Of a DNA stretch of 64,000 nucleotides, positions 7,501 to 51,540 are shown piece by piece. Within the stretch, counting starts at the first letter, position 1. The number at the start of each line of letters is the position of its first letter. The DNA is from an uncultured Hungatella sp. (lineage in GTDB: Bacteria; Bacillota; Clostridia; Lachnospirales; Lachnospiraceae): positions 1 to 64,000 of the forward strand of contig CAMUJH010000012.1 in NCBI GenBank assembly GCA_947089145.1. Direction: 5' to 3'. The position numbers and the translations under genes were made by a program. The notes below the pieces were generated by a model. That model had not been told where the DNA came from. It did not search any database and was given only the letters and a program-made list of their open reading frames with translations.

Positions 7501-7529
7501 AGTATAATATAGCTATGATATTTTTTCAA
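7501..7529 (-). promoter_or_regulatory. Promoter of the GGDEF gene
   Basis: On the minus strand TTGAAA (7529-7524), 17-base spacer, TATACT (7506-7501), about 48 bases before the start codon. Confidence 0.65.
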
Positions 7530-7624
7530 TTCTAAGGGCTTCTGATGCCGTAGCAATGTGTTCCGATATATTGACAATCTGTTCCTGGCAGCTTGGATTC
7601 TGATATTCTGGTTTTCATAATGCT

Positions 7625-7681
7625 ATTTGTCACATCCGAAATGACAAATGTAATAAAACCAACCCTAAAATAGTGACAATA
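7625..7681 (+). promoter_or_regulatory. Candidate operator of the PTS operon
   Basis: A perfect inverted repeat ATTTGTCA (7625-7632) / TGACAAAT (7642-7649) with a 9-base spacer, followed by a further half-site TGACAAT at 7674, about three helical turns downstream. TACAAT at 7710-7715 is a possible -10. The repeat is a plausible site for the NarL-type regulator encoded at 13168, but that link is inference. Confidence 0.45.
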
Positions 7682-7751
7682 TACAGATGTTTTTCCCTAA
7701 GGCACTTGGTACAATTACACTACAAAAGGGAATGACAAAGGAGGAATTTAT

Positions 7752-8690: not shown

Positions 8691-8714
8691 TTTAGGAAAG
8701 GACGGCAGGTTTTT

Positions 8715-9557: not shown

Positions 9558-9558
9558 G

Positions 9559-10371
9559 ATGAAAAAATTATCAAAGAAAACACTGAACAAATCTTTCTTA
9601 TCCTGGTTTTACGGCAACCTGACCTGTTTTTCCCAGGAGCATATGCAGACCTTTGGTTACCTTTGCTCCATGCTTCCCATTGTGGAGGAACTGTATGATA
9701 CCCAGGAAGAAAAAAAGGACGCAATACAGACATATACCGCATTTTTTAATACAGAGCCTCAGATTGGAACGATTGTAGTGGGCATGACGGCGGGCCTGGA
9801 AGAAGCTAAGGCAAATGGAGAGCCTATTGACGGTGAGACGATTAATGGTATCCGTGCAGGACTTATGGGGCCTCTGGCTGGTATCGGCGACTCACTCATC
9901 GTAGGAACTTTGATTCCCATTCTTCTTGGAATCGGACTTGGACTTTCGGGAAATGGGTCCCCACTGGGCGCAATTTTTTATATTATAGTCTGGAACGTTT
10001 TGATGTTTTTCGGAATGAAGTTTGCATATTTTAAAGGCTATGAGATGGGCGGCAAAGCCGTGGAAATGCTGGTAGGTGAGCAGGCGCAGGCACTTCGCGA
10101 TTCTATTATCATGATCGGTACTATGGTGATCGGAGCCGTGGCGGCAAGCTGGATCAGCGTTACGACTGCCTTTAATATTCCAGGAGTTATTGACCTGCAG
10201 AGTACCTTTGACTCTGTTTATCCAAAACTGCTTTCGGCAGGCACGGTAATTTTCTGCTGGTGGCTTATGACAAAGAAGAAAATTTCTCCTACCATGGTTA
10301 TGCTGATATTGGTGGTAATCGCATTCGCAGGCGTTCTTCTTGGATTCTTTGATCCGGGACTGTCTTACTAA
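9559..10371 (+). CDS. Mannose-family PTS enzyme IID
   Basis: A 270-residue membrane protein, partner of IIC. It has QTFGYLCSMLPIVEELY, FFNTEPQIGTIVVGMTAGLEEAKANGE and the signature GLMGPLAGIGDSLIVGTLIPILLGIG. The start at 9559 was chosen because GAGGAGG lies 11 bases before it; a longer frame open from 9532 would overlap IIC. The gene is intact. Confidence 0.93.
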   Translation: MKKLSKKTLNKSFLSWFYGNLTCFSQEHMQTFGYLCSMLPIVEELYDTQEEKKDAIQTYTAFFNTEPQIGTIVVGMTAGLEEAKANGEPIDGETINGIRAGLMGPLAGIGDSLIVGTLIPILLGIGLGLSGNGSPLGAIFYIIVWNVLMFFGMKFAYFKGYEMGGKAVEMLVGEQAQALRDSIIMIGTMVIGAVAASWISVTTAFNIPGVIDLQSTFDSVYPKLLSAGTVIFCWWLMTKKKISPTMVMLILVVIAFAGVLLGFFDPGLSY

Positions 10372-10392
10372 GGAACAGGAGGTGAGGAAGCG

Positions 10393-10668
10393 ATGTCAGA
10401 GGCTTACAAGCATTATCTGATACAGGAAGCAAAAATGCAGGCAAGAGCTCTGGAGAGGATTGCCGCATGGAGAAGAGAGGCATTGTCTGTGGCAGGTATT
10501 GGGATTCTGCTGGCATATATAGGCTTTGTGACGGAAATAAATATTCTGAGGGGAGTATTTGGCATAGTAACTGCCGTCTTAGGAGGGGGCATTGCTTTAC
10601 TCATCCATATAGGATATAAAAACGGAAAAAAGAATGTGGAGCATATTTTAAAGGCTGTACAAAAATAG
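10393..10668 (+). CDS. Small membrane protein at the end of the PTS operon, unknown
   Basis: A 91-residue protein with a charged amphipathic N-terminus (about 1-28) and two membrane helices (about 31-49 and 55-76), ending in a lysine-rich tail. I do not recognise the family. It has a clear GGAGG ribosome site, lies 21 bases after IID and before the operon terminator, so it is very likely translated with the transporter. A role in assembly or regulation of the PTS complex is possible but unsupported. Confidence 0.75.
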   Translation: MSEAYKHYLIQEAKMQARALERIAAWRREALSVAGIGILLAYIGFVTEINILRGVFGIVTAVLGGGIALLIHIGYKNGKKNVEHILKAVQK

Positions 10669-10671
10669 AGG

Positions 10672-10713
10672 AAACGCAGGGAGGCATGAATAAATGGCTC
10701 CCTGCGGGTTTTT
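10672..10713 (+). terminator. Terminator of the PTS operon
   Basis: Perfect stem CGCAGGGAG (10675-10683) / CTCCCTGCG (10698-10706), then GGTTTTT. It separates the PTS genes from the signalling operon. Confidence 0.88.
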
Positions 10714-10855
10714 CGCCATGGTTAGGAGCCAGACAGCCTGTGTTTTCTGAGAAAGGCTTTCCAAAAGAGAGCCTGGGCGGAAATATATCTTCAAAAAAAT
10801 GTAAGACAGTGATAAAATGATTACAAAACAGACAAAGCCATGGAGGCAGAAGAAA

Positions 10856-11830
10856 ATGGGAAGGGCTCACAGATCAATACCAGGGCTTATGGCTTTTTTG
10901 GCAATTGCATTGGCAGCAGGCCTGGCAGCTTGGGGACTGATGAAACAGGGGATCGGGAATGCCGTGGAAGATAAAAGGGTTCGTAAATTCGGGGCTACTT
11001 ATATGACCATGAATAATCCATTTTACGAGATTATTGATAACGAAATACGAAGCATTGTGGAGGCAAGGGGAGATATGCTGATTACCCGAGATCCGGCTCT
11101 TGACGTTTCAAAGCAGATTGAACAGGTGAAAGAGATGATCGATCGGAAGGTAGACGGGCTTTTTATTAATCCGGTGGACTGGAAGATGATTAGTCCGGCT
11201 TTGAAAGAGGCATATGAAGCAGGGATTCCCATTATTGTCGTGGACAGCGATGTTTTTGATTCAGAATTGGTAAACTGCACAGTGGTTTCAGATAATTATG
11301 AGGCAGGCGTCCAGTGCGCAGAACATCTGCTTAAACATCATGAGAAGGGAAATATCCTTGTGCTTACTCACAGTGCTGCCAAGTCAGGTTTTGACAGAAT
11401 CGAGGGATTTAAGGATACCATAAAAGGTCATGAGGAATTTGTAATATTGGGAGAAGAAGACTGCCTGGGGCAACTGGAGCTGGCTATGCCGGTGACAGAA
11501 CGGCTTTTAAAAGAGTATCCGAAGACGGACGTCATTATGTGTCTCAATGATCTGGCGGCTATGGGAACCATGGCAGCTTTAAAGGATGCAGGCCTGGAAA
11601 GAAGCATTACAGTCTATGGCGTGGACGGCTCACCAGACGGAAAATCTATGGTAGAGGCAGGATTTATGGAGGCTACAGCGGCCCAGTTTCCCAGAAGAAT
11701 CGGCAGAGAGGCAGCGGAAGCGCTGTACCAAATCCTTAACGGGGAACCAGTGGAGGCGACGATCAGAATAAAGACAGAATTGATTGATAAGGAAAATTTG
11801 GGAGTATACGGAAGCGATGGATGGCAGTAG
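10856..11830 (+). CDS. Membrane-anchored sugar-binding protein, type 1 periplasmic-binding fold (probable sensor)
   Basis: The 324-residue protein has an N-terminal membrane helix (about residues 8-28) with no lipobox Cys, then a Peripla_BP_4 ribose/xylose-type binding domain: YMTMNNPFYEIIDNEI, DPALDVSKQIEQVKEMI, VDGLFINPVD, GIPIIVVDSDV and VYGVDGSPDGKSMV. The start was set at 10856 behind GGAGGCAGAAG, because a TAAAAT element overlaps the upstream ATG at 10817. No ABC ATPase or permease follows; a histidine kinase does. This matches the arrangement of XylFII-LytS sugar sensors described in clostridia, so sensing rather than transport is inferred. Confidence 0.85.
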   Translation: MGRAHRSIPGLMAFLAIALAAGLAAWGLMKQGIGNAVEDKRVRKFGATYMTMNNPFYEIIDNEIRSIVEARGDMLITRDPALDVSKQIEQVKEMIDRKVDGLFINPVDWKMISPALKEAYEAGIPIIVVDSDVFDSELVNCTVVSDNYEAGVQCAEHLLKHHEKGNILVLTHSAAKSGFDRIEGFKDTIKGHEEFVILGEEDCLGQLELAMPVTERLLKEYPKTDVIMCLNDLAAMGTMAALKDAGLERSITVYGVDGSPDGKSMVEAGFMEATAAQFPRRIGREAAEALYQILNGEPVEATIRIKTELIDKENLGVYGSDGWQ

Positions 11831-11866
11831 AAAGGGATGTGAACCAAACGGGAGAGGGCAATAAAG

Positions 11867-13171
11867 ATGACCAGGGAGAGAGTGGTTAGCAATCTGCAGC
11901 AGGCAGCCTATATTTTGAACTTTGGGGCAGTGATTCTGGTGGCAGGGAGCATGGCCTACAGTATTTTTGCAATTGTGGAGGCTATGCAGGCGGAGATGTT
12001 TCTAAACCTGATTCAGGTCAGGCCGTGGACGCCAGGCGCCATGGTGATCATATCTGTGTCAGGATATCTCTGTCTGGTATTTTTCAGCTGCCTGGGCCAG
12101 CTATGGGATCATAAGAGAAGAATGGTGAGGCTTCTTATTACTGCCACAGAAATGATTTTCTGCATTGGAACCACGATTGCCATGAATATGAACTATAATG
12201 GCCTTGTTCTTTTGGTGGTGGCTGATATGGTGCGGGGACAGAAAGGAAGCCGGCAGAAAGTCATTTTGGGGCTTGCCGTGGTGTGTCTGTATACCATTGT
12301 CAACTATAATCTGACGGGAAGTTATTTTAATATGATTCCATGGGAGTCATATCTGATATGTTTTCGAGGCAGCACGCAGGCGTTTCTGAAAGGGCTGCTG
12401 AGTGTATTCAGTTCTATGAATCTGGTTCTGTTTATTCTCTATATGACTATGCTGATTCAAGGAGAGTACAGGGAGCGGGAGCGTTTTCAGAACTTGAGTG
12501 AGCAGCTGGAGGAAGCAAATAAAAAGCTGAAAGAATTTGCAGCGGAGGCGGAAAAAAATGCAGAGGTGAGGGAAAGGAACCGGCTGGCCCGGGAGATTCA
12601 TGATACTTTAGGACATTCTCTTACTGGAATTGTAGCGGGAGTGGATGCCTGCCTTACTATGATTGACATATCTCCAGAGGCTACGAAGCAGCAGCTAATC
12701 AAAATCGGCAACGCTGCAAGGCAGGGGATGACAGATGTGCGGCGTTCTGTCAGCAAACTGAGGCCGGATGCTTTGGAAAAACTGGATCTGGAGGATGCTG
12801 TTGTAAAGATGCTTCAGGATACTGAAGCTGCATCAGGCACAGAAATCCAATTTCAAAACCAAGTAAAGCCTTTAAAATTCCATGAGGATGAAGAGGAGGC
12901 GATTTACCGTGTGGTTCAGGAGGCCACAACTAACGCTATACGCCATGGACACGCAAAGAAGATATGGATTCATATTTCCAAGGCGGAACAGTGGCTGACA
13001 ATCATGGTCAGGGATGACGGAGTGGGATGTGATTTTATTCATGAAGGATTTGGGTTAAAGCATATGGAGGAAAGGCTGCATCTTTTAGATGGCACACTGG
13101 AATATGACGGTAAAGAGGGATTTTTGATTACTGCCCGGATACCCATTCGGTGGGGGGAGGAGTATCAATGA
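11867..13171 (+). CDS. Sensor histidine kinase (DesK/NarX-type, HisKA_3)
   Basis: A 434-residue kinase. About five or six hydrophobic segments occupy residues 15-205, followed by a coiled coil (about 205-235), a HisKA_3 dimerisation helix with the phospho-acceptor His245 in REIHDTLGHSL, and a HATPase domain with VVQEATTNAIRHG (N box), RDDGVGCDF and GFGLKHMEERL. There is no sizeable extracellular domain of its own, so the anchored binding proteins encoded on either side are good candidates for its ligand-sensing parts. Its stop overlaps the regulator start (ATGA). Confidence 0.92.
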   Translation: MTRERVVSNLQQAAYILNFGAVILVAGSMAYSIFAIVEAMQAEMFLNLIQVRPWTPGAMVIISVSGYLCLVFFSCLGQLWDHKRRMVRLLITATEMIFCIGTTIAMNMNYNGLVLLVVADMVRGQKGSRQKVILGLAVVCLYTIVNYNLTGSYFNMIPWESYLICFRGSTQAFLKGLLSVFSSMNLVLFILYMTMLIQGEYRERERFQNLSEQLEEANKKLKEFAAEAEKNAEVRERNRLAREIHDTLGHSLTGIVAGVDACLTMIDISPEATKQQLIKIGNAARQGMTDVRRSVSKLRPDALEKLDLEDAVVKMLQDTEAASGTEIQFQNQVKPLKFHEDEEEAIYRVVQEATTNAIRHGHAKKIWIHISKAEQWLTIMVRDDGVGCDFIHEGFGLKHMEERLHLLDGTLEYDGKEGFLITARIPIRWGEEYQ

Positions 13172-13845
13172 AAGAAAAGATTAAGATCGTTATTGCTGAC
13201 GACCAGGAACTGATACGGGACAGCTTAAAGATCGTTTTGTCTGCCAACAAGGATATGGATGTTATTGACACAGTGGCCGACGGGAGAGAGGTAATACGTT
13301 CAGTGCGCAGGGCAAAGCCCGATGTAATTCTGATGGATATACGGATGCCGGGGATGGACGGAGTATCCTGCACTCAGATTATCAAAGAAAATTATCCACA
13401 GATAAAGATCATTATCCTGACAACCTTTGACGATGATGAATACGTATACAATGCGCTGAAATATGGGGCCAGCGGGTATCTGCTAAAAGGGGTTTCCATG
13501 GCAGAGCTGTCATCGGCGATCCGTACTGTCTATGGAGGAAAGGCTATGATCAACCCGGACATTACGGTAAAAGTGGTGCGGCTTTTTTCCCAGATGGCAA
13601 AGGGAAATTATGCTATCAGGGTGGATGACAGGAACATGGATGAGATTAACAGGACCGAATGGAAGGTGATCCAGCAGGTTGGATATGGCCGTTCGAATAA
13701 GGAGATAGCAGCGGCTCTGAACCTTTCGGAGGGAACGGTGAGAAACTGCCTTAGTTCGGTTTTGAGCAAATTGGATCTGAGGGACAGGACCCAGCTTGCT
13801 TTATGGGCAGTACAGACAGGCGTTATCACCCGCAATCTTGAGTAA
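13168..13845 (+). CDS. NarL/FixJ-family response regulator
   Basis: A 225-residue regulator. The receiver has Asp11/Asp12, the phospho-acceptor Asp57 in VILMDIRMPGMDG, and LTTFDDDEYVYNALKYGASGYLLKG. The C-terminal LuxR-type helix-turn-helix (about 168-210) includes GRSNKEIAAALNLSEGTVRN. The start was set at 13168 behind GGGAGGAG, overlapping the kinase stop by 4 bases. Likely target: the adjacent PTS operon, whose leader holds an inverted repeat at 7625. Confidence 0.93.
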   Translation: MKEKIKIVIADDQELIRDSLKIVLSANKDMDVIDTVADGREVIRSVRRAKPDVILMDIRMPGMDGVSCTQIIKENYPQIKIIILTTFDDDEYVYNALKYGASGYLLKGVSMAELSSAIRTVYGGKAMINPDITVKVVRLFSQMAKGNYAIRVDDRNMDEINRTEWKVIQQVGYGRSNKEIAAALNLSEGTVRNCLSSVLSKLDLRDRTQLALWAVQTGVITRNLE

Positions 13846-15263: not shown

Positions 15264-16082
15264 ATGAATGAAAGATTGCCGCAGAATTTTCATTGCAGGA
15301 TAATATACAGCGATATAGACGGGACTTTGCTGAACAGCAGCCATCATATAAGCCCGGATACCAGGGAAAAAATTTTGGAACTGGACAGGAAGGGGATTCC
15401 GTTTATTTTGGTTTCCGCCCGGATGCCGGACGCTGTGGAAGTCGTACGGAAGGAGCTGGGAAACCGAAGGCCGATTATTTGCTATGGAGGAGGACTGATT
15501 CTGGACGAGAATGGGCAGACCATATACAGCCGGCGTATGGAACTGGATCTGGCAGTGGAGATTCGGGATATAGTAAAGAAGCAGTACCCAGGAATATGCT
15601 GCAATACTTATGGCGGAAACTTGTGGGTCGTAGACAACGATCAGGAACCCAGAGTAATACAGGAGGAAGAGATTGTATCAGGAAAGTCTTTGGCTGGGAA
15701 TATAGAAGAGATATTTGGAAAAGAAGGGGGAATCCATAAATTCCTGTTTATGGGGGAACCGGAGGATATCAGGAAGGCGGAAAGCTTTCTGCAGAAAAGA
15801 TATGAGCAGTTATCAGTTATTAGTTCTAAAGAAGATTATCTGGAAGTAATGGATAAAGCGGTTAATAAGGCCGAGGGCGTACGGATACTATGCAGCTATT
15901 ATGGAATACCATTGGAGGAGGCGGCAGCATTTGGGGATGGAGAAAATGACATTGGAATGCTTAAGGCCGTAAAATATGGGTTTGCCATGGGAAATGCAGA
16001 GGAATATGTAAAGGGGCAGGCAGCTTTTGTGGCTCCCACTAATGACGAGGAGGGAATTTTAGAGGTAATAAAGGGGCTGTAG
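15264..16082 (+). CDS. Cof-type HAD-superfamily phosphatase
   Basis: A 272-residue cytosolic hydrolase, likely acting on a sugar phosphate or similar small phosphate ester. Motif I is YSDIDGTLLNSS, motif II lies in ILVSARMPD, the C2 cap follows, and motif IV is FGDGENDIGMLKAVKYGFAMGNAEEYVK. It has GGAGG upstream and lies 45 bases after the binding-protein gene, so it may be co-transcribed and could dephosphorylate sugar phosphate made by the PTS. The specific substrate cannot be read. Confidence 0.92.
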   Translation: MNERLPQNFHCRIIYSDIDGTLLNSSHHISPDTREKILELDRKGIPFILVSARMPDAVEVVRKELGNRRPIICYGGGLILDENGQTIYSRRMELDLAVEIRDIVKKQYPGICCNTYGGNLWVVDNDQEPRVIQEEEIVSGKSLAGNIEEIFGKEGGIHKFLFMGEPEDIRKAESFLQKRYEQLSVISSKEDYLEVMDKAVNKAEGVRILCSYYGIPLEEAAAFGDGENDIGMLKAVKYGFAMGNAEEYVKGQAAFVAPTNDEEGILEVIKGL

Positions 16083-34065: not shown

Positions 34066-35790
34066 ATGCAGAATCAGAAGATGGAGAATATACTGAATCT
34101 GGCTCTTGAGGCCACGCCGGAGGAAATAGAGAGGTCGGAGACACTGGCCATAGGATATGATCCTGCAGAGAAAACGTGGGAAGTGATTGTGAAGCATTCG
34201 CAGCCCCTTAGTGGGCTGGAGCAGATGGGAGTGAGGCAGACAGAGCTGTTAAATCAGTATTCTATCCTTACGGTTCCAGAGTCAAAACTTGAAGAAATAA
34301 GCAGGCTGAATCAGGTGGAATATATTGAAAAACCAAAGAGGCTGTACTTTTCCGTAGGGGTGGGAAAGACGGCCTCTTGCATTTCCTATGTCCAGGCCGA
34401 AGGCAGCAGCTATGGGCCGTATTTGACAGGGCGGGGGTGCCTGGTAGCGGTGATTGATTCAGGGATTGATTATTACCATGATGATTTCCGCAGCGAGGAC
34501 GGGAGCACCAGGATCGTGGAATTGTGGGATCAGACGCTTGATAGGATTTTTACGGAACAGGAGATAAACGAGGCGCTTAGTCAAGGAAGCCGCAGGGAGG
34601 CGAGAAGGGTTGTTCCAAGCGTGGACGGAAGCGGCCATGGGACGGCAGTGGCAGGGATTGCTGCGGGAAACGGGAGGGGCAGCCAGAGTCAGAGCCAATA
34701 CCGGGGAGTGGCGTTTGAAAGCCGTCTTTTGGTGGTAAAACTTGGAAGAGCCGATCCTTTAGGATTTCCAAGAACGACAGAATTAATGAAGGCATTGGAT
34801 TATGTGGTGCGGCGGGCTGCAGAGATTGGGATGCCGGTATCGGTTAATGTGAGTATCGGCAATACGTACGGCTCTCACGACGGAACCAGCCTTTTGGAGA
34901 CTTACATTGACGGGATTTCCAATTATGGAAGAAATGTCATTGTAATTGGTTCAGGAAATGAGGCAAGAAGCGGAGGCCATGCTTCAGGAGTTCTGGCAAT
35001 GGGCAATTCTGTTAATGTGGAACTGTCCGTTGCCCCGTATGAAAGCGGAATAACAGTTCAGCTGTGGAAGCATTGTGTGGATGATTTTTCCATTACTCTG
35101 GTGACTCCGTCAGGGGATATTCTGGGGCCTTTGCCGCCGGTGATTGGCCCGCAGACTTATAATTACGAAAGCACCAGAATTCTTTTATATTACGGAGAGC
35201 CAGGCCCTTACAGTAAAGCCCAAGAGATTTATTTTGATTTTATCCCTCTTCATCGGGACTATCTGCAGAGCGGAATATGGGTGTTCCATTTAACGCCAAG
35301 GAAAATTATTCAGGGAAATTATGATTTTTGGCTGCCGTCATCGACCATATTAAACAACTCTACCTATTTTTTACAGTCAACACCAGATACCACGTTGACA
35401 ATTCCGTCTACAGCCTCTATGGCCATAACAGTGGGGGCCTATAACAGTAATTATCAGACGTATGCTGACTTTTCGGGACGGGGATTCACCAGAGTGACGA
35501 ATCAGGTCAAGCCGGATATTGCGGCGCCGGGAGTGGGGATCATGGCGCCTAAAAGTGGAGGAGGGTATGAGGCGGTGACCGGTACATCCTTTGCTGCCCC
35601 TTTTGTGACTGGAAGCGGGGCGCTGCTGATGCAGTGGGGGATTGTGGAAGGGAGAGATGAATTTTTATATGGGGAGAAATTGAAGGCGTATCTGATGCGG
35701 GGAGCCAGGCAGATTCCGGGGTATAATGTGTGGCCGAATCCTCAGCTTGGCTGGGGGACTTTGTGTTTGCGGGATAGTTTGCCTGTGTAA
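34066..35790 (+). CDS. Subtilisin-like (S8) serine protease, Csp-type
   Basis: A 574-residue subtilase with all three catalytic residues: Asp131 in VAVIDSGIDYYHDDF, His191 in GSGHGTAVAGIAAG and Ser508 in VTGTSFAAPFVTG. There is an inserted domain between His and Ser (about 310-430) and no signal peptide. This layout resembles the Csp germination proteases of clostridia, which activate the cortex hydrolase SleC. The N-terminal 95 residues could be a prodomain. GAGG lies 7 bases before the start. The last 13 codons are repeated in diverged form at 49707-49748, marking the edge of the adjacent island. Confidence 0.88.
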   Translation: MQNQKMENILNLALEATPEEIERSETLAIGYDPAEKTWEVIVKHSQPLSGLEQMGVRQTELLNQYSILTVPESKLEEISRLNQVEYIEKPKRLYFSVGVGKTASCISYVQAEGSSYGPYLTGRGCLVAVIDSGIDYYHDDFRSEDGSTRIVELWDQTLDRIFTEQEINEALSQGSRREARRVVPSVDGSGHGTAVAGIAAGNGRGSQSQSQYRGVAFESRLLVVKLGRADPLGFPRTTELMKALDYVVRRAAEIGMPVSVNVSIGNTYGSHDGTSLLETYIDGISNYGRNVIVIGSGNEARSGGHASGVLAMGNSVNVELSVAPYESGITVQLWKHCVDDFSITLVTPSGDILGPLPPVIGPQTYNYESTRILLYYGEPGPYSKAQEIYFDFIPLHRDYLQSGIWVFHLTPRKIIQGNYDFWLPSSTILNNSTYFLQSTPDTTLTIPSTASMAITVGAYNSNYQTYADFSGRGFTRVTNQVKPDIAAPGVGIMAPKSGGGYEAVTGTSFAAPFVTGSGALLMQWGIVEGRDEFLYGEKLKAYLMRGARQIPGYNVWPNPQLGWGTLCLRDSLPV

Positions 35791-42835: not shown

Positions 42836-43706
42836 TAGAGGGAGTTTTACCTGATGGACAGGGGATATTCGGCGTCCAAGGTAAGCCTGGTCGTTTCTGC
42901 TTCCTTGGCTGTTTCCGTGGCTTTGCAGCCGGTTGTGGGGTTTTTAAGCGACCGGTTTGACAATCCGGTGGTGGAGCAGATGGCTACTGTCTCCAGATTC
43001 CCATATGGCAGAATCCGGGTGTATGGGACCCTTGGATACGCCGTAGGGACCCAGATCAGCGGGATTCTTTACCGCTATGTTTCCCCAGGAGCCATGTATC
43101 AGATGTGCGGTATCGGCATGGTGGTGTGCATGGCAGGCATTCTTGGCACCCAGGATGTCCGGCAAAAAGGAGAGGAGGAAGGCAAACCGTCAAAGAAAGG
43201 GCACCTTTCTCCCTTCCATGTTTCAGGAACGGGGCATGAGCATAGATATGGCGGCCACGGTGATTTTTGCGGCAACTCTGATGGAGTTCCCCATCGTTAT
43301 GTTTTCCGGCAGGGTTATGGATTGTATGAAAAATAAAGTGCTGCTACTGGCGGTATTTTCGCTTCTGGTGATACAGTTTGGGGTTTACGCTTTTGTACCG
43401 GCTGTGACATTTCAGGCTGCTGCCGCATTTTTTACCAAATCTGTAGCAACCATGGCATACATTATGATTAATCTGAAAGCGATTGCATCCATCGTGGATA
43501 AACGGTATCAAATGACGGCCCTTGCCCTGGTAGCGGCGTTGAAAAGCCTGTTTACCGTCGGATTTCAGACTGTGTGCGGGTATCTGCTGGACCATGGGAC
43601 TTATGAGCGACTGTATCTGCTCCTGTTGGGGGTATCGGCAGTTGGGATTCTGCTGACTTTGGCCAGCCCCATTCCAGACGGAACCCAGGAGAAGCTGTTT
43701 GGGTAA
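42836..43706 (+). pseudogene. Broken MFS transporter
   Basis: Two frames together make most of a nucleoside/sugar-symporter-like MFS protein: SASKVSLVVSASLAVSVALQ, GFLSDRFDN, YGRIRVYGTLGYAVGTQISG in the first; ERGMSIDMAATVIFAATLME, VPAVTFQAAAAFFTKSVA, TVGFQTVCGYLLDHGTYE in the second. The frame changes near 43195-43205. The first helices are missing. It ends with a complete C-terminus before a terminator. Confidence 0.8.
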
Positions 43707-44281: not shown

Positions 44282-44310
44282 TTGTAGAAATGCTCATAGT
44301 TTGGTACAAT
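44282..44310 (+). promoter_or_regulatory. Promoter of the kinase/HNH operon
   Basis: TTGTAG (44282-44287), 17-base spacer, TACAAT (44305-44310), 30 bases before the chosen start codon at 44341. Confidence 0.6.
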
Positions 44311-44340
44311 AACGATAGTATGGATGCCAAAGGAGTTTCT

Positions 44341-46674
44341 ATGAGAAAACGAGTCAGGGAAATCGGGTTTGACGTAGATGCTTATACTGCCAGATTGATC
44401 GGCCGGGAGAATGTGTCAAAACTAGAGGGTGCAGTGTTTGAGATTGTGAAAAACGCCTATGATGCGGATGCAAGTGTATGCTGTCTGTATTATTCCAACA
44501 CAGAGGATCGAATCTACATTTTGGATAATGGCTGGGGAATGAAGGAAGAAGTGCTGCGCACCCATTGGATGACAATCGGAAATTCATCCAAAAAGAGTTC
44601 TTATATTACAAAAAATGGAAGAATACAGACAGGAGCAAAGGGAATTGGCCGATTTGCTTTGGATCGCATGTCCGATCAATGTGATATGCTTACGATTTCA
44701 GATGAAGGAAGCCTGGAATGGATCGTAGACTGGAGGGACTTTGATGGAAGTAAACGAATATCCGAGGTAAAGGCAAGAGTTTATGATACGGATATTCGTT
44801 TGCTGGAGCATGTGGGAATTGAAAGTTGGAAAAACAGGGCAGTGGCAGCAGAAATAGAGAAATGTAATTTTGGGGGAACAGGAACAGCATTTTGCCTGGA
44901 CCATCTTCATGATGTCTGGAATGAAAAGACAATGAACGCTCTCAGAAATCATTTGGAGAATTTGTTACCTCCAGATGTGACGCAGAAGTTCTGCATTTGG
45001 TTTTTTGATGATTCAACCAGTGTGGAGGATGCATTGATAACCAGTGCAAATGTGGAGTCCTATGACTATCGGATAGATTTTCAGGTTACCGCTAATTTAG
45101 TGAATATTCAGATCACACGGAATGAATTCGATTTTCGTGGAGAGGAGCAGGAAGTATATACAGAGGCAGGATTTGATGAACTTGAGCAGGCCTATCTGCA
45201 GGGGAAAAAGAAGGAAGAGTCGTTTACCATTGAAGAAATAGGGGAGAAAGAGAACTTCATCGGGGACTTTGAAGGCGTATTATATTTTTATAAAATAAGT
45301 GCGAACAAAAAGGATCAGGAAAGATTTTATTATAAAGATATTACAGGCCGGGCAAACCTTGCCAAAAAATTTGGCGGGATTAAGTTGTATCGTGATCAAT
45401 TCCGTGTGCGCCCTTATGGTGAGTATGGTGATAATGATTTTGACTGGTTAGAGCTTTCTGCCAGGCGGAATCGTTCTCCGGCAGGTCTTGGAAAGAAAAC
45501 GGGAAATTGGCGTGTCGGCTCAGAACAGATGCTGGGAACCGTGTCAATATCCAGAGAAAATTCAAACCTGGAGGATGCGGCGAATCGTAACGGTATTCAG
45601 GAGGGAATCGGTTTTTCACAGCTGAAAAGGATTCTGTTATTTGTGATTGCAGAGTTTGAACGGGATCGGCAGTTTGTAGGGCGTAAGCTGGCCAGATATG
45701 CGGATAAAAAGGATCAACTGGCGGCTAAACTGGAAGAAATACGTCGACTTGCGGAAGCACGGAAAAAATGGGAAGCAGAACAATCAGCCAGGGAACAGTC
45801 GGAAAAAACAAAAAACGCGGAGGAGCGGCCATCAAAATCGAGTTTGCCGCCTTCGGCCAATCCGGAAGATGTTATGAATCTGGTGGCAAATATGGAGCAG
45901 AAACAGGAGGAAGAACTGGAAGAACTGCGAAACGAGAATAAAATGCTTCAGACATTAGCCACGACAGGGATTATTACCAATATGTTTATGCATGAGATTC
46001 GAACATCTACCAATAATATTGGCCTGGAATTAAACGCAGCCTATGAAGCTATAGAATATGATAATGATGTGGAGTATGCTTTACAGAATATCTTGCGTGC
46101 GATCAGAGTTAAAAAGAATTTTGCTTCATGGTTTGGCATCACCATTGAATCCATCAAAAAGGATAAACGAAAGAGAAAAAAACATAATATTCAAAGCATG
46201 CTGGAACAGTATATGAATACGTGGAATGATATTCTGGATAAAAGCGGAACCAATTTTATCTATAAGTGTGACTCGGATATAGAGCTTTGGTGCTTTGAGT
46301 TTGATATTGAGAATATTATTAGTAATTTAATTGCTAACAGCCTGGCGTCTTTTGACAGGGAAATGGACAGAAAGCTGGAAAAACGGGAAATTAGATTGAA
46401 TATATCCAAACTTGAAAGTAGATTATCAATGGATTATCAGGATAGTGGATGGGGTTTGATTCCAAAATATAAAAAGCGGCCGGAGTTGATTCTAGAACCA
46501 TTTGAGAGCGGTCATCATTTTGAAGGAGCGGATGAAGAGGATGGGACCGGGATGGGGATGTGGATCGTAAACCGTACTATATCCGAGTATAATGGAACTA
46601 TTGATCTGAGTGAAAATCTGAGAGCGGAAACAGGATTTTATGCAAAAATCATATTAGGAGGTCGAAATGTATAG
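44341..46674 (+). CDS. Dual-GHKL kinase: Hsp90/MORC-like ATPase fused to a histidine kinase
   Basis: A 777-residue soluble protein with no membrane segment. Its N-terminal ATPase is of Hsp90/MutL/MORC type: EIVKNAYDADA (residues 33-43), DNGWGM (62-67), IGNSSK and GAKGIGRFALDRM (98-110). A long middle region and a coiled coil (about 460-540) follow. The C-terminus is a complete histidine kinase: phospho-acceptor His551 in MHEIRTST, N box ENIISNLIANSL, G1 DSGWGL and G2 GTGMGMWIV. Start at 44341 behind AAAGGAG; an upstream in-frame ATG (44290) lies inside the promoter. The receiver gene overlaps its end by 8 bases. Likely the sensor of a defence-like phosphorelay; that is inference. Confidence 0.85.
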   Translation: MRKRVREIGFDVDAYTARLIGRENVSKLEGAVFEIVKNAYDADASVCCLYYSNTEDRIYILDNGWGMKEEVLRTHWMTIGNSSKKSSYITKNGRIQTGAKGIGRFALDRMSDQCDMLTISDEGSLEWIVDWRDFDGSKRISEVKARVYDTDIRLLEHVGIESWKNRAVAAEIEKCNFGGTGTAFCLDHLHDVWNEKTMNALRNHLENLLPPDVTQKFCIWFFDDSTSVEDALITSANVESYDYRIDFQVTANLVNIQITRNEFDFRGEEQEVYTEAGFDELEQAYLQGKKKEESFTIEEIGEKENFIGDFEGVLYFYKISANKKDQERFYYKDITGRANLAKKFGGIKLYRDQFRVRPYGEYGDNDFDWLELSARRNRSPAGLGKKTGNWRVGSEQMLGTVSISRENSNLEDAANRNGIQEGIGFSQLKRILLFVIAEFERDRQFVGRKLARYADKKDQLAAKLEEIRRLAEARKKWEAEQSAREQSEKTKNAEERPSKSSLPPSANPEDVMNLVANMEQKQEEELEELRNENKMLQTLATTGIITNMFMHEIRTSTNNIGLELNAAYEAIEYDNDVEYALQNILRAIRVKKNFASWFGITIESIKKDKRKRKKHNIQSMLEQYMNTWNDILDKSGTNFIYKCDSDIELWCFEFDIENIISNLIANSLASFDREMDRKLEKREIRLNISKLESRLSMDYQDSGWGLIPKYKKRPELILEPFESGHHFEGADEEDGTGMGMWIVNRTISEYNGTIDLSENLRAETGFYAKIILGGRNV

Positions 46675-47311
46675 AGTTGGATATATAGATGATGAACCGA
46701 CACAATTTGAAAATTATAAGAGATCATTGCGCCGGCGGTGTAAGGAACTGGATCTGGTGCTGATAGAGGATTGTGAGAGTAAACAGGATATTTTGGATAA
46801 AATTTATGAGAAACAAATTGATGTACTGTTAATTGACTATAAAATGGTAAAGAATTATGGATTTAACGGAACTACATTGATTAATTATATTAATGATTCT
46901 ATGCGTGATATCCAGTGCTTTATTATGACCGCTGTAGATACGGAGCAGATTACGGACGGACTTGTGGCCGATAGGGATAAATTTTCTAAAAATATTTTTG
47001 ATACGGAAGGAGCAGATCCGAAAAAAGAGGCGGAATTAAATGCTTTTATCCAGATTTTGTTGGAGAGCGCAAAAGTATTTCAGGTTCGGCGACAGCAAAA
47101 ATTAGGGCGGTATAAAGAACTGTTAGACAAAAAACTTCATGGGGAGTTAGGGGCAGATGAGGAGGAATTTCTGGAGTTGTATAAGGTCTTGTCATCTTAT
47201 GGGTTAGTAGAAAAGTTGCCTAAAAATATGCTGAATTCAAAATTTGAGGAGCGATTACAGCGGATACTGGAATTGGGAAGTGCGATCATTGCGGAACATA
47301 AGACAGAATAG
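46667..47311 (+). CDS. Stand-alone response regulator receiver with helical tail
   Basis: A 214-residue protein. Residues 1-120 form a receiver: YIDDEP (Asp8, Asp9), phospho-acceptor Asp57 in VLLIDYKM, Thr88 in CFIMTAVD and the conserved Lys near 108 (FSKNIF). The remaining 95 residues are charged and helical (AFIQILLESAKVFQVRRQQ, LLDKKLHGELGADEEEFLEL) with no recognisable DNA-binding domain. It overlaps the kinase gene by 8 bases, so it is the evident partner. Its output is more likely protein contact, for instance with the HNH protein, than transcription. Confidence 0.85.
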   Translation: MYRVGYIDDEPTQFENYKRSLRRRCKELDLVLIEDCESKQDILDKIYEKQIDVLLIDYKMVKNYGFNGTTLINYINDSMRDIQCFIMTAVDTEQITDGLVADRDKFSKNIFDTEGADPKKEAELNAFIQILLESAKVFQVRRQQKLGRYKELLDKKLHGELGADEEEFLELYKVLSSYGLVEKLPKNMLNSKFEERLQRILELGSAIIAEHKTE

Positions 47312-47336
47312 CCAGCAATAGATAAAGGAGAATATA

Positions 47337-47921
47337 TTGAGAGTACATGGTGATAAAATAATTCGGAGACGGAAAGGTATCTCGGAATTGAAAAAGTATC
47401 AGGATGGCAGAGAACTGTTGGAGCAGGATTTTTATTATCTATGTGGTTACTGTGGAAAAGATGGAAATGTGTTGCACCAAAAACTTCATTTGGATCATTT
47501 TGTCCCGAAGAGTTTAGATAAAAGCCGGGAAAATGATTATTATAATTTGGTTTTAGCCTGTTCAAGATGTAACCTGTCTAAGTCAGATAAATGGCCGACA
47601 GGAGATATTACGCAACCACATAATGAAAAAGATGGATTTGTGGATCCGGCAGTTCCAGAATTTGACGAGCATTTGGAGCGGAATGAGAAAGGATATGTGG
47701 TTGGGAAAACACCTGTTGGAGACAGTATGTGCAATATGCTTCACCTGGATATCAGAAGAACAGATCTATACTGGAATGCGGCTCAATTAAAGAGGCAGCT
47801 CAAAGAATTGGAGAAACTATTTCAGGAAGGAAAATTAACAGAGCGGCAAAAAGATATTTATATCGAGACTAATATGATTTTTAATGAATACATAGACCAG
47901 GCATTTACAAAGGGTGAATAA
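47337..47921 (+). CDS. HNH endonuclease (Septu/retron-effector-like)
   Basis: A 194-residue nuclease with a zinc-stabilised HNH core: CGYCG (Cys36, Cys39), LHLDHFVPKS (catalytic His54 with Asp53), YYNLVLACSRCNLSKSDKW (Asn70, Cys75, Cys78). The following GFVDPAVPEFDEHLERNEKG and VGDSMCNMLHLDIRRTDL resemble HNH effectors such as PtuB of Septu. The start is TTG behind AAAGGAG, 25 bases after the receiver gene. It ends directly at the methyltransferase start. Likely DNA (or RNA) cleavage effector or restriction enzyme. Confidence 0.88.
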   Translation: MRVHGDKIIRRRKGISELKKYQDGRELLEQDFYYLCGYCGKDGNVLHQKLHLDHFVPKSLDKSRENDYYNLVLACSRCNLSKSDKWPTGDITQPHNEKDGFVDPAVPEFDEHLERNEKGYVVGKTPVGDSMCNMLHLDIRRTDLYWNAAQLKRQLKELEKLFQEGKLTERQKDIYIETNMIFNEYIDQAFTKGE

Positions 47922-49508
47922 ATGGACAGTGATAAATTATCGGGTACCTATTACACTCCGCCCGATGCAATTCAGTTTATGATGGAGTATTTAAAAAAAG
48001 AACAACAGGATTTTTCTAATGTGTTGGAACCTTCAGCAGGTGATGGAAGGTTCCTTCCTTTGTTGCAAGAGAATGCGTCACATATAACAGCTATTGAGCT
48101 ATTTCAGGAAAAAGTAGATCAGATGTGCCGGGAATATACAGGAGGCTTATTTACAATCGTAAAGGATAATTTTCTTGACTTTGCTGTCAATACATTAGAG
48201 CGCTATTCACTGATTATAGGAAATCCTCCGTATATTAATAAAAAACGGATGGGTAAGGAGGATCTTGAGAAAGCATATGTAATTTGTACAGAGGCAGGAT
48301 TAAGCAAAACGGTGATGCAGAATATGTGGCTGGCGTTTATAATGGGCTCCTGTCGTTTACTTCAACCAGGTGGCAGTATTTTTTTTATATTACCGATGGA
48401 ATTTTTGCAAGTGCAATATGCAGAGAGACTTAGGGAACATCTGGAGAAGATATTTAATACGATTCATATTATTGTTTTTCAAAAGGCTCTGTTTCCGAAG
48501 ATTGAACAGGAGGTCTGCCTGGTATATCTGACAAATAAAAGATATGCGGAAAGGCATATACGTTATGAGATATATGAGGACTGCAGAAAGAGAGTTCCAA
48601 TACAGGAAAATAGTATCCGTTGGAATAAACCATTAAAAAAGTGGTCAAACGCAATTCTCGATGATAGTGATATTTCTTTATTAAAAAATGCTATGAATCG
48701 ATATCCACGAATCAAAAATATGGGGCAAATCGCACCTGGTATTGTGACAGGAGGGAACCGATATTTTATTTTATCAGAAGAAATGGTAGAAAAGTATCAG
48801 TGTAGGGAGTTTGTGCTTCCCATTGTTCAGAAAGCTTCTTATATACCAAAGAATATCATAGAAATTTCTGAGGAAGTAGTAAAAGAGATAAGCCTGAATA
48901 ACAAGCCGCTTTATCTGTTGAACCTTTCTGGGGAGAAAGATATACTAAGATTGCCTATTGCACTGCAAAAATACTTGAACTGGGCGGGAGACCAGAAGGT
49001 GGGTGATATACCGCTGAAAGATTGTTATAAATGTTCGACTCGGATGCCGTGGTATGGTGTGCCTATTGTGAAAAAGGGAGAAGTGGTATTTTTTAAACGT
49101 TATGGTCAACTGCCTCGTATTTATTATAACTCAGCGGGGGTACATACTACGGATGCAGGGTATCATATACGGCTTATGGACGAGTTTGATGGGGAGAGTT
49201 TGGTGTTCTGTTTTTTTAATTCTATCACTCTTGCTCAATGCGAATTTGATGGACGCTATTATGGCGGAGGAGTATGTGAACTTGTACCAACAGAGTTTAA
49301 GGATATTGTGGTTCCATATCGTCGTATTAGAGAAAAAGATAAAGAAAAATTAAAGTCTTTGTTCAAAAGTGGAGAACCAGTGGACGAAATTGTTAAATTT
49401 GTAAATGAGTTGACAATTTATAGAGATTACGAGGCCAAACAGATACATCGGTTTGAAGAAATTCGCAGAGTATTGATGGGAAGAAGAGATGGTAAGATAG
49501 GATTTTAA
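47922..49508 (+). CDS. N6-adenine DNA methyltransferase (TaqI/Eco57I type)
   Basis: A 528-residue gamma-type adenine methyltransferase. Motif X is GTYYTPPDAIQFM, motif I is VLEPSAGDGRFLPLL (34-48), and the catalytic motif IV is IIGNPPYINKKRM with NPPY at 101-104. Residues from about 250 form a target-recognition half, ending with CEFDGRYYGGGVCELVP and coiled coil. There is no fused nuclease. Its ATG follows the HNH stop with no gap, so the two are co-translated, as in restriction-modification pairs. AT-rich codon use fits a recent arrival. Confidence 0.92.
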   Translation: MDSDKLSGTYYTPPDAIQFMMEYLKKEQQDFSNVLEPSAGDGRFLPLLQENASHITAIELFQEKVDQMCREYTGGLFTIVKDNFLDFAVNTLERYSLIIGNPPYINKKRMGKEDLEKAYVICTEAGLSKTVMQNMWLAFIMGSCRLLQPGGSIFFILPMEFLQVQYAERLREHLEKIFNTIHIIVFQKALFPKIEQEVCLVYLTNKRYAERHIRYEIYEDCRKRVPIQENSIRWNKPLKKWSNAILDDSDISLLKNAMNRYPRIKNMGQIAPGIVTGGNRYFILSEEMVEKYQCREFVLPIVQKASYIPKNIIEISEEVVKEISLNNKPLYLLNLSGEKDILRLPIALQKYLNWAGDQKVGDIPLKDCYKCSTRMPWYGVPIVKKGEVVFFKRYGQLPRIYYNSAGVHTTDAGYHIRLMDEFDGESLVFCFFNSITLAQCEFDGRYYGGGVCELVPTEFKDIVVPYRRIREKDKEKLKSLFKSGEPVDEIVKFVNELTIYRDYEAKQIHRFEEIRRVLMGRRDGKIGF

Positions 49509-49573
49509 GAGGGTGTCTCGTGCTCGAAGATATTGGATGATGGGAGGTAAATAGAAGTTTTTTGAGAACAACT

Positions 49574-49703
49574 TGACACTAATTTACAGTCAATTTTGCC
49601 TAAACTTAGCATTACTGTACCATTCTCCCCACAGAGTTATACGGGTTTCTGCGGTTTTCGCTCAAAAAAAGTGAAAAAAGTTTGTGACATTAACTTGACA
49701 TTA
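49574..49703 (+). repeat. Three TGACA(C/T)TA direct repeats at the island's right end
   Basis: TGACACTA at 49574-49581, TGACATTA at 49685-49692 and TGACATTA at 49696-49703; the first and third are preceded by AACT. The last one abuts the protease-tail remnant. Such repeats are typical of recombinase arm-binding sites; the role here is inferred. The rest of 49509-49862 has no gene. Confidence 0.5.
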
Positions 49704-49706
49704 GCG

Positions 49707-49748
49707 GGATGGGGGACTTTGTGTCTGCGGGACAGTCTGCCGGTGTAG
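49707..49748 (+). pseudogene. Remnant of an S8 protease 3' end (junction repeat)
   Basis: In frame it reads GWGTLCLRDSLPV then stop, identical in protein to the end of the protease at 34066-35790, while the DNA differs at about five positions (TGGGGGACTTTGTGT is identical in both). No other protease sequence is present. It marks an insertion or recombination junction 13.96 kb from the first copy. Confidence 0.85.
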
Positions 49749-49841: not shown

Positions 49842-49862
49842 CTATTCTGCTGCTGATAATTT

Positions 49863-50783
49863 TTATTGTAAATCCATGTTTGCGCCTGGGGCGCCCATTG
49901 CCTTAAGCTTTGCCCGGTACTGCATGGGCGTCATGCCGTGGAGGGTGCGGAAGGATTTGAGAAAGCTGCTGTAGTTGGTGAAGCCGCTGTTGGTGCAGGC
50001 GTCCAGGACGCTGCGTCCGGCGGCGATTTCCTGACGGCAGTGCTGCATGCGCAGGTTTCGGATATAATCGTGGATGCTTTCCATGGTGTATTCTTTAAAG
50101 ACCCGGGAAAGGTGCTCCCGGCTGGTGAAGGTGTATTTGGCCAGGAACGTTGCGGTCAGGCCCGGATCTGTGTAGTGGTCCCGGATGTATTCTACCGCAG
50201 CGGAAACCAGGGTGCTGGTACAGCTGGGAGATGGCATCTCTGTATGCCGGTCTTCTACAAGCTGGTTGATAAAAAGCTGGAGCTCTATAAGCTCGCAGGT
50301 GAGAATAATCTCCTGGCAGTCCCTCCGGATGTGGGGAATCTGGACCATCCTTTCCAGAAGGCCCCGCAGATCCCAGGTAGATACGGCATGGGCGTTGAGT
50401 ATGACAATATTCTGCTGCCACTGGGGATTGCTAAGACCAGACTGGCGGATGGCCATGTCCCAGACACTGGTACTGATCTGGACCACAAGCCGGTCGGAGA
50501 CTGTGTCTGTCACCGTATATCTGCCGGCATGGTAGAGCTCCGCTGGGAAGAAAACCATCTCCCCGGGGTGCAGGGTGTAGAGATTTCCCAGAAAGGAGTA
50601 CTGTACATCACTGCCGGATATGAGAAGAATAATCTCATGGTAGGGGTGGGAATGGACTACAGACTGCTTATTTTTCTGGTTTGTGAACCAGGTTACCGCC
50701 ACCTGGCATTCCTCCAGATTGATCCGGGCCATTTCCTGGGTGAGCAGAGAATCGGTGAAGTGGTTAATTTTCTGGACAATCAT
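49863..50783 (-). CDS. AraC-family regulator with cupin sensor
   Basis: A 306-residue activator-type regulator. The N-terminal cupin (about 30-110) includes VVHSHPYHEIILLISG and LHPGEMVFFPAELYHAGRY. The C-terminal AraC DNA-binding domain (about 205-295) has two helix-turn-helices, with LTATFLAKYTFTSREHLSRVFKEYT and DACTNSGFTNYSSFLKSFR. It is divergent from the YcxB/TRAP/GH31 operon, which it probably controls, with a sugar bound by the cupin as signal. The 175-base AT-rich divergent region shows no consensus promoter. GGAGG lies before the start. Confidence 0.92.
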   Translation of the reverse strand: MIVQKINHFTDSLLTQEMARINLEECQVAVTWFTNQKNKQSVVHSHPYHEIILLISGSDVQYSFLGNLYTLHPGEMVFFPAELYHAGRYTVTDTVSDRLVVQISTSVWDMAIRQSGLSNPQWQQNIVILNAHAVSTWDLRGLLERMVQIPHIRRDCQEIILTCELIELQLFINQLVEDRHTEMPSPSCTSTLVSAAVEYIRDHYTDPGLTATFLAKYTFTSREHLSRVFKEYTMESIHDYIRNLRMQHCRQEIAAGRSVLDACTNSGFTNYSSFLKSFRTLHGMTPMQYRAKLKAMGAPGANMDLQ

Positions 50784-50958
50784 AAGAGGCCTCCTTTTTC
50801 TAAGAGTATATCTGGAAATATCACATTTTGCAAGTTTTCAGTCACAAAAAAATGAGATTTCTATTTATTTTAATTGGTAAAATTAGACGAAAAGTAATGG
50901 AAAAAATAAGAAAATAGTAAAAAATATCTACAAAAATTTCTGAAATGAGGCCTTGCTA

Positions 50959-51540
50959 ATGGGTGGCGAACATAAATGTTTTGATATTCTGGTGGTTTTT
51001 GACGACGATACGATCCGGCGCATGTTCCGGGCGGAGTATTACACCTATGAGACGGCACGGCGTCTGCTGCGGTTTCTCCTGGGAGCAGCGGGAATCATGG
51101 CCGCACTGTTTGTGGATTTCCCCACGGCAGGTAAGACAGTCTGCCTGATGGCTGGGGTGTGGATGCTGGTTGCCGGGGACTTTCCCAGCAAGGTCCAGGC
51201 CGAGGGTGTTATCAGTCAGCGGAGGGGCCGGCACAGCCAGGTGGTCTGCCGTGTGAAGGATGAAGGACTGGAGGTTCAGGGCGGCGGGTTTCTTTCCTAC
51301 AGCAGCCTGGACAGGCTGGTCTATGACGAGGAATATCTGTATCTGTTTGCCAGCCGCCAGACAGCCGTTATGCTTCCGGCAGCCGCCATAGGCGCAGAAC
51401 GGCTGGAGTCTTTTAAGGCGGAGGTTCGGGAGAAAAGCGGAAAACAATGGAAACGGCTTACAACCGGATTTCTGGAATACAATCTGAGGGATCTGGTGGA
51501 AGCCCTTGCAGGGAGGCAGAAAGCCAGCACGCGGAAGTAA
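50959..51540 (+). CDS. YcxB-like membrane protein
   Basis: A 193-residue protein. A short N-terminal soluble part, two adjacent membrane helices (about residues 35-75, LLGAAGIMAALFVDF and VCLMAGVWMLVAG), and a C-terminal beta-rich region with GGGFLSYSSLDRLVYDEEYLYLF resemble the YcxB-like family. Function is unknown. The ATG at 50959 is preferred over a TTG at 50953 because of GAGG spacing. It is the first gene of the TRAP operon. Confidence 0.65.
   Translation: MGGEHKCFDILVVFDDDTIRRMFRAEYYTYETARRLLRFLLGAAGIMAALFVDFPTAGKTVCLMAGVWMLVAGDFPSKVQAEGVISQRRGRHSQVVCRVKDEGLEVQGGGFLSYSSLDRLVYDEEYLYLFASRQTAVMLPAAAIGAERLESFKAEVREKSGKQWKRLTTGFLEYNLRDLVEALAGRQKASTRK

Follow-up and report, generated by a model that had tools for sequence, protein, structure and literature searches.

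What does a complete sensor kinase do in one operon with a nuclease and a DNA methyltransferase, and could it decide when the nuclease cuts? The question is raised by four genes on contig CAMUJH010000012.1 (assembly GCA_947089145.1) of an uncultured Hungatella sp., whose first 64,000 nucleotides, the whole stretch analysed here, are called the window. The genes encode, in this order, a kinase, a receiver, an HNH nuclease and a methyltransferase, all lie on the + strand between positions 44341 and 49508, and form a tight operon. We propose that they constitute a mobile restriction-modification (R-M) system that needs a phosphorelay to license cleavage, a proposal to which we give even credence, and whose observed basis is that the four genes are co-inherited and keep their active-site motifs intact.

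Four genes with conserved active sites

The kinase combines an N-terminal ATPase domain, HATPase_c_3, with the C-terminal HATPase_c in a single protein, and the Pfam scan found no other domain above the cut-off. In a profile search against the PDB, its N-terminus matched MutL (9n2k, 6.2e-08), then mostly Hsp90 proteins, and MORC3 (5ix1, 3.2e-06). Glu34, Asn38, Asp62, His551, Glu552, Asn662, Gly703, Gly735 and Gly737 are invariant in all 34 aligned kinases, and Asp701 is found in 32 of them, and therefore both ATPase sites and the phospho-accepting histidine look intact. The locus L024, whose kinase is interrupted, was excluded from the kinase alignments. A PD-Lambda-5 match (0.0016) at kinase residues 445-570 was among the leads set aside.

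In the receiver, Asp57, Thr88 and Lys108 are present in 19 of 19 aligned sequences, and its profile retrieved response regulators from the PDB, such as DevR, NtrC and RcsB; neither Pfam nor this profile search found a DNA-binding or other output domain. The signature of an active phosphorelay, namely the H-box histidine of the kinase and the Asp/Thr/Lys set of the receiver, is thus conserved, from which phosphotransfer itself is predicted. The HNH protein has Cys36, Cys39, His54, Asn70, Cys75, Cys78 and Asn79 in common with all 16 aligned homologues, and is closest to the models of PtuB and retron effectors (PADLOC PtuB, 3.8e-16), though with NCBIfam PtuB it scores 36 bits against a cut-off of 150. 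Some rows of the receiver (A2) and HNH (A3) alignments begin at the preceding stop codon, and so include extra residues before the true start.

The methyltransferase matches PADLOC MTase_II over nearly its full length (1e-117, residues 3-523), so that the DNA methyltransferase that defines a type II R-M system on this side is present. In the PDB it matches M.TaqI (3.3e-09). M.TaqI marks adenine at N6, and the target of the window enzyme would thus also be adenine N6. An earlier, sequence-only reading of this DNA had recognised a full histidine kinase with two ATPase domains, a partner receiver with Asp57, an HNH protein resembling Septu and retron effectors and a stand-alone NPPY methyltransferase. 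The domain matches and conserved residues bear out all four descriptions, and place the methyltransferase in a class used in R-M.

The open reading frame (ORF) coordinates agree exactly with the tight packing claimed in that reading: the receiver start (46667) and kinase stop (46674) overlap by 8 bases, 25 bases separate the receiver stop (47311) from the TTG start of the HNH gene (47337), and the HNH stop (47921) and methyltransferase start (47922) are contiguous, with a gap of 0 bases. The first ATG of the kinase ORF is at 44290 and would give 794 aa, but the start is probably the ATG at 44341 (777 aa), because CAAAGGAGTTTCTATG stands there, because the alignments of the longer ORF to the homologues in L017, L018 and L019 begin only at its residues 15, 15 and 18, and because ATG 44290 falls within a promoter-like element. 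With the start at 44341, the residue number His551 given earlier is correct (His568 if counted from 44290).

The promoter-like element is kept in two relatives, L013 and L016; the stretch that both share with the window begins at about 44279, the left edge of the conserved unit. In a sigma-70 scan the element fell below the threshold and was not listed, and the scan was rejected as proof of a promoter, as it found 19 candidates against 17.6 +/- 4.6 in shuffled sequences. Of the single promoter claimed earlier, what stands is a conserved element at the left edge of the unit; the scan does not add to it.

Table 1. Coordinates of the features described in the text (window positions).
Feature	Position	Strand	Evidence
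Promoter-like element, TTGTAG-17 nt-TACAAT, TG before -10	44282..44310	+	8/12 to consensus
Sensor kinase, paraMORC-type dual-GHKL histidine kinase, 777 aa	44341..46674	+	Pfam, PDB profile, family alignment
N-terminal GHKL ATPase HATPase_c_3, MutL/Hsp90/MORC-like	44422..44772	+	Pfam 1.9e-15
Phospho-acceptor His551 codon, H-box HEIRTS	45991..45993	+	15/15 and 34/34 aligned kinases
C-terminal histidine-kinase ATPase HATPase_c	46303..46638	+	Pfam 4.7e-11
Stand-alone receiver with C-terminal extension, 214 aa	46667..47311	+	Response_reg (PF00072) 3.2e-07
Phospho-acceptor Asp57 codon	46835..46837	+	Invariant, 19/19
HNH nuclease, HNN-type, four conserved Cys, 194 aa, TTG start after AAAGGAG	47337..47921	+	Pfam HNH 1.3e-10
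Catalytic His54 codon	47496..47498	+	16/16
DNA methyltransferase, M.TaqI/Eco57I type, 528 aa	47922..49508	+	M_Eco57I_C 4.8e-25, Eco57I 3.7e-14
NPPY catalytic motif (residues 101-104)	48222..48233	+	11/11
Right arm of the mobile unit	49567-49747	+	Last 41 bp (49707-49747) copy the S8 peptidase gene 3' end
S8 peptidase gene, probable integration target	34066..35790	+	Peptidase_S8 2e-33

The four genes recur as a unit

Loci with a related kinase were retrieved with the window kinase protein (10 in genome contigs, and 82 plasmid records, of which 9 high-ranking ones, H1-H8 and H11, were opened) and with an alignment of the kinase N-terminus (68 loci in viral contigs), which also matched 4 of 398 genomes of the phylum and 11 of 200 of the family, the window's own genome being counted in both. 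L012 and L131, which are the same place, and L003 and L130 came from the receiver search and not from the kinase. Leaving out L001, L002 and L032-L047 (the window itself or short re-fetched copies) and L003-L011, L101 and L130 (no kinase by profile) gives 102 kinase loci, and removal of 6 at >= 95% identity leaves 96 non-redundant ones, L012 among them.

A directly following gene is present in 88 of these 96; the other 8 have no downstream gene in range, 4 of them at the end of the locus. In a joint alignment, 86 of the 88 have an Asp in the phospho-acceptor column, which is an upper figure, since the alignment is weak (mean column identity 7%), Response_reg is matched at E 0.01 in only 27 of the 88, and two of the 88 match HATPase_c and are pieces of broken kinases. 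The receiver type of the window follows the kinase in 30 of the 96 loci, and among these the HNH gene comes next in 29, and 26 include a methyltransferase gene in the operon, placed downstream (the arrangement of the window) or upstream of the kinase. The automatic tally (28 and 23) was raised by hand to these values, by adding L021, where an antisense ORF call had hidden both the HNH gene and the methyltransferase, and the upstream methyltransferases of L012 (seen in L131) and L056 (its upstream gene clusters with methyltransferases); for L055, L057 and L058 the profile scores behind the upstream methyltransferase are weak (3e-5 to 8e-4). Contig ends account for most of the remaining exceptions, that is the unseen HNH gene of L015 and the unseen methyltransferases of L014, L015 and L051, leaving L018 as a real exception for the methyltransferase. 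The co-occurrence is far above chance, and the four-gene set is a recurrent unit, in answer to a check that the sequence-only reading had set.

The hosts of the receiver-type set span four phyla, plus plasmids and viral contigs, and their record names include Lachnospiraceae, other Clostridia, Bacteroides, Ensifer, Salipiger and Deinococcus. The identity of the relatives would by itself make a Lachnospiraceae host probable for the window. Within the family of the window, 7 of the other 10 kinase-bearing genomes have the form with the methyltransferase upstream, together with receiver and HNH gene. A receiver query of 391 genomes of the class gave a match in 11, among them the window's own; 8 of the 11 matches were dropped, being proteins of 528-550 aa of which only about 90-100 residues aligned, and were taken as ordinary regulators. 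The receiver alignment (A2) gave 68 pattern matches in viral contigs, of which 0 were confirmed.

The association was also approached from the side of the nuclease, with the HNH profile (A3) run against viral contigs and the best 80 of 138 confirmed loci (79 distinct) considered. The scores split sharply: 9 loci reach 161 bits or more, and the remaining 70 have at most 50.2 bits or no scored ORF. A kinase gene is present in 8 of the 9 high-scoring loci, the ninth, L135, being cut by the contig end within its receiver gene and keeping the methyltransferase, and in 0 of the 70 low-scoring loci within the fetched stretch. As 7 of the 8 kinase-bearing contigs had already been retrieved with the kinase, the two scans overlap. 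One of the 70, L143, is a truncated member of the HNH subfamily, lacking the region before residue 70. Score split and kinase presence together indicate that this HNH subfamily is closely tied to the operon: in these searches it was found without a kinase only in L135 (contig end), L143 (truncated gene) and genome G158 (a remnant, locus L130).

A phosphorelay that may license cleavage

In the mechanism that we propose, the kinase would act as a dimer, its MutL/MORC-like N-terminal ATPase serving as a clamp by which DNA, or a methyltransferase complex bound to it, is read. On DNA that the methyltransferase has left unmarked, ATP-driven closure of the clamp would switch on the C-terminal kinase, His551 would be phosphorylated and the phosphate passed to Asp57 of the receiver, and the phosphorylated receiver would bind and unleash the HNH nuclease; the methyltransferase would protect the host DNA. 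The receiver has no recognisable DNA-binding domain, and so is likely to act on a protein. Given also the conserved relay and nuclease residues and the exchangeable output (see below), the simplest account is that the relay licenses the nuclease by protein contact. The nearly constant presence of a methyltransferase argues for self-marking, and the variation in its class suggests that the cue for the kinase is broader than a single methylated base; it might be unprotected DNA in the grip of the MutL-like clamp, or a methyltransferase complex sitting on DNA. We infer that unmethylated DNA is the signal, phosphorylation the on-switch and the methyltransferase the self-marker for this nuclease. 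The sequence-only reading had arrived at the same scheme in outline, with the kinase sensing infection or unmethylated DNA, and it is the best available account, with a presumed trigger and a presumed sign of the control.

Several observations weigh against this scheme. L018 (9983-13550) has an intact kinase, receiver and HNH gene with no adjoining methyltransferase, and no enzyme of the Eco57I type was found in its 2.9-Mb genome at E 1e-10, in a search that covered this class only and a metagenome-assembled genome that is perhaps incomplete; this locus speaks against a strict self-marking role. As regards contact between receiver and nuclease, no ORF in the kinase loci matches both profiles, so there is no fusion to support it. 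The receiver and HNH distances correlate at 0.43 over all 26 loci, and at 0.69 and 0.68 within two subgroups, but this is not above the values of other pairs; the correlation was rejected as evidence of contact, and there is thus no covariation sign of a special one.

The same facts can be arranged differently. The kinase might watch the methyltransferase or the methylation of the host, so that a phage that inhibits or outruns methylation would, through the relay, free the nuclease on all DNA and kill the cell. PtuB and retron effectors, the closest models of the HNH protein, act in abortive systems, and the different methyltransferase classes beside one kinase family suggest that no single mark is read; nevertheless, we consider such a guard unlikely, since the set of L018 would hold nothing of this methyltransferase class to be guarded. 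The sign of the control could also be reversed, with a nuclease active by default that phosphorylation silences and that infection, through loss of ATP or inhibition of the kinase, would release. All that the sequences tell of the relay is compatible with both signs, a protein with two ATPase domains would be well suited to sensing energy, and in related kinases the N-terminal ATPase may, as Bellieny-Rabelo et al. speculate, respond to NTP levels (PMC8011034). However, the HNH gene is kept in loci with an interrupted or fragmented kinase (L024, L030) or with a truncated receiver and no kinase (L130 of G158), although such cells should not survive a nuclease free of restraint. On this handful of cases, loss of the kinase seems to be tolerated, which mildly favours activation over repression; we hold a default-on nuclease to be distinctly unlikely.

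Two more conventional explanations do without a relay that governs cutting. Type II R-M systems often carry regulators, and the methyltransferase and HNH nuclease could form an ordinary one whose expression the kinase and receiver merely regulate. We regard this as very unlikely, given that the receiver has no detected DNA-binding domain and that, in these searches, the HNH subfamily lacks the kinase only in L135, L143 and G158. Similarity to MutL and MORC, together with a Vsr gene following one member of the family (L104), would fit a module for DNA repair or DNA superstructure, with no part in defence; its scattered occurrence (in 11 of 200 family genomes), its copies in phages and plasmids and the defence genes beside it in several loci make this hardly credible. 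Licensing of the nuclease by the phosphorelay remains our preferred reading.

A proposed exchangeable switch in the wider family

The kinase loci as a whole show that both the methyltransferase and the output vary. Among 45 upstream genes of at least 350 aa, 20 match Eco57I and 17 N6_Mtase (overlapping sets), 9 match N6_N4 and 8 match C5 methylase profiles, and the few that are not methyltransferases include an S8 peptidase, an IS66 transposase and a phage integrase. Exchange is also seen among close relatives: L013 is identical to the window at 87% in the kinase, 88% in the receiver and 85% in the HNH protein, but at only 55% along the length of the methyltransferase, which is a sign that the latter was exchanged independently. 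The L013 methyltransferase is 62% identical to that of L017, and the L016 enzyme is 79% identical to that of the window.

On the output side, 4 loci have an MBL-fold hydrolase after kinase and receiver, identified in L031 by Pfam and annotation and in L077, L089 and L100 by clustering with L031. In 52 loci the gene after the kinase is longer than 300 aa; nine of these genes were scanned singly, giving a weak receiver match in 3 and a nuclease match in 0. Some of the long receiver-like genes are then followed by proteins of 215-316 aa to which no identity was assigned. In L068, L084, L098 and their relatives, proteins of 242-316 aa with a conserved H-x-D and, further on, His and Pro residues stand after receiver-like genes of 339-410 aa; the two such second-gene proteins that were tried (L068, L074) have no Pfam match, and this group may possibly represent effectors. 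L022 (9980-19832) encodes a kinase, a Response_reg_2 receiver (9.3e-27) and then MrcB_N and DUF2357/PDDEXK_7 proteins, and is a member of the published HEF_HK/Response_reg_2 family with an Mcr-like (McrBC-like) output.

For the wider family we infer that kinase and receiver together serve as a reusable switch, to which different methyltransferases and different outputs have been wired. As a tentative generalisation, in which we place slightly less than half of our belief, there may be a class of phosphorelay-gated restriction systems, in which a MutL/MORC-like kinase and a receiver form a plug-in switch that is combined with at least three methyltransferase classes and with several outputs (HNH nuclease, MBL hydrolase, long receivers with unassigned partners, McrB-like partners), and in which cutting would be decided by protein phosphorylation and not by a nuclease reading its own site; the window would hold its HNH/N6-adenine member, on an SCC-like cassette. 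On the usual view, a restriction enzyme leaves its host unharmed because it reads the methylation of its own site. If the proposal is true, restriction here would follow a different logic, in which sensor and cutter are distinct, exchangeable proteins that communicate by a phosphate signal, and the bacterial paraMORC-type kinases, relatives of eukaryotic MORC ATPases, would gain a testable function. The system is compact, and each step of its four genes is accessible to one point mutation.

Mobility and genomic neighbourhood

The operon genes have a GC content of 37-41%, against 49% (30-43 kb) and 52% (51-64 kb) in the flanks. To their right lies an arm whose terminal copy of the S8 peptidase gene end is 88% identical over 41 bp to the original (35749-35789), and the operon of L013 is preceded, at a distance of about 55 bp, by the end of an intact S8 gene. 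No left copy of the S8 target was found beside the window operon. L016 holds three copies of the arm (3854-4010, 9746-9921 and 15284-15422), which lie right after a PrimPol-helicase gene, about 1 kb after an Aga_REase-PNTD1-PNTD2 match (PADLOC, 1.5e-36), where Aga is presumably Argonaute-associated, and after the operon; the repeated arm thus brackets separate defence-like genes. SCC-type cassettes insert at the 3' end of a gene, and the arms of the window and of L016 together look like an SCC-like integration site for defence genes in such a position.

Large serine recombinases with Resolvase, Recombinase and Zn ribbon domains, which we take to be reminiscent of Ccr recombinases, lie upstream of the operon in L015 (two, 4848-8023) and L017 (three, 1828-6769); the window genome has six of these, none on this contig. 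The right flank (49850-51540) was used in a DNA search of 41 genomes for an empty site, and was not found in the other genomes of the genus; a single genome of the order gave a match, of no more than 35 bp. Other loci have a phage context, with tape-measure and tail genes (L048), an endolysin (L052) or a phage-type DNA polymerase (L050).

The set is found near defence genes in several loci, for example those for PrimPol-helicase and Aga_REase-like proteins, and also on plasmids and viral contigs, in line with the defence association put forward earlier. The remnant in L130 (G158, 8382-13530) consists of a truncated receiver and an HNH gene beside a fragment of a type I restriction subunit and an AEP-TOTE primase-helicase-PLD protein, and a Schlafen-AlbA protein is encoded at 5007-6362 of the same locus. 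Left of the window operon, overlapping short ORFs (42854-43706) with a below-cut-off MFS match (43077-43703) have the look of a decayed transporter gene.

Comparison with known systems

The sequence-only reading had called the operon new, which is too strong, as paraMORC-type kinases with a receiver beside R-M genes were predicted in 2021. Bellieny-Rabelo, Pretorius and Moleleki (PMC8011034) described kinases with HATPase_c_3, HEF_HK and HATPase_c adjoining Response_reg_2 receivers near R-M genes, with C5 methyltransferase, Vsr and HNH_2 as typical partners and HNH variants and N6/N4 methyltransferases also among the neighbours, and proposed that R-M is controlled by signalling; in the accessible part of the paper we found no functional experiment. 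The literature that we could search, which left subscription journals and bioRxiv largely outside, likewise yielded no experiment on such a kinase-receiver R-M system, and the prediction seems still to be without experimental follow-up.

Among systems with related parts, Detocs uses two-component signalling for phage defence, and a kinase-receiver pair is present in the window too, but Detocs has three genes, and its best-described member has a purine nucleoside phosphorylase (PNP) effector that cleaves ATP (PMC11249213). Pfam found no PNP domain in the four window proteins, whose output is a nuclease and a methyltransferase, and membership in Detocs was therefore rejected. With Septu and the retrons the operon has in common the PtuB-like HNH protein, but it has no PtuA ATPase and no reverse transcriptase; membership in Septu was rejected because the neighbours are a kinase, a receiver and a methyltransferase and because PtuA models, among the matches listed, fall only on the HNH protein. 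The MADS system was rejected as well, since there is only a partial mad2 match (methyltransferase residues 5-217) and no other mad model among the matches listed (best 25 for the HNH protein and the methyltransferase).

In GHKL-Shedu (paraMORC3, VcSduA), a GHKL ATPase is proposed to control a defence nuclease, and both parts are needed (PMC12137116); there the ATPase is fused directly to a PD-(D/E)XK nuclease, with no phosphorelay and no methyltransferase, whereas the window has separate genes. CapK/CapS controls the expression of an immune operon through a GHKL-family kinase that phosphorylates a serine of a transcriptional repressor (PMC13373217), in contrast to the His-Asp pair of the window, for which no DNA-binding output was found. 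In the DefensePredictor paper, HATPase and REC are listed in a figure legend as domains that occur in predicted systems still awaiting validation (PMC13092281), and two further papers deal with other systems (PMC12839542, PMC10952713).

Iyer, Abhiman and Aravind (PMC2292703) placed MutL/MORC-like GHKL ATPases of the paraMORC group in R-M operons, paraMORC1 with HNH endonucleases; a histidine-kinase half and a receiver are not described in the accessible part of that work. The HEF_HK/Response_reg_2 family shares with the window the HATPase_c_3 and HATPase_c kinase of paraMORC kinship, the adjacent receiver and the R-M neighbours. However, the window kinase does not match HEF_HK (PF19191) at E 0.1, nor did a search of the genome at E 1 give a match at the locus, and the window receiver matches Response_reg (PF00072) and not Response_reg_2 (PF19192), which is matched by only 1 of the 88 kinase-downstream genes. 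By profile, then, the operon is not a member of that family, though it is built on the same plan, and it differs further in its Eco57I-type methyltransferase, its PtuB-like HNH protein and its stand-alone 214-aa receiver. Judged from its sequence, the operon is a distinct HNH/N6-adenine branch of the kind predicted in 2021.

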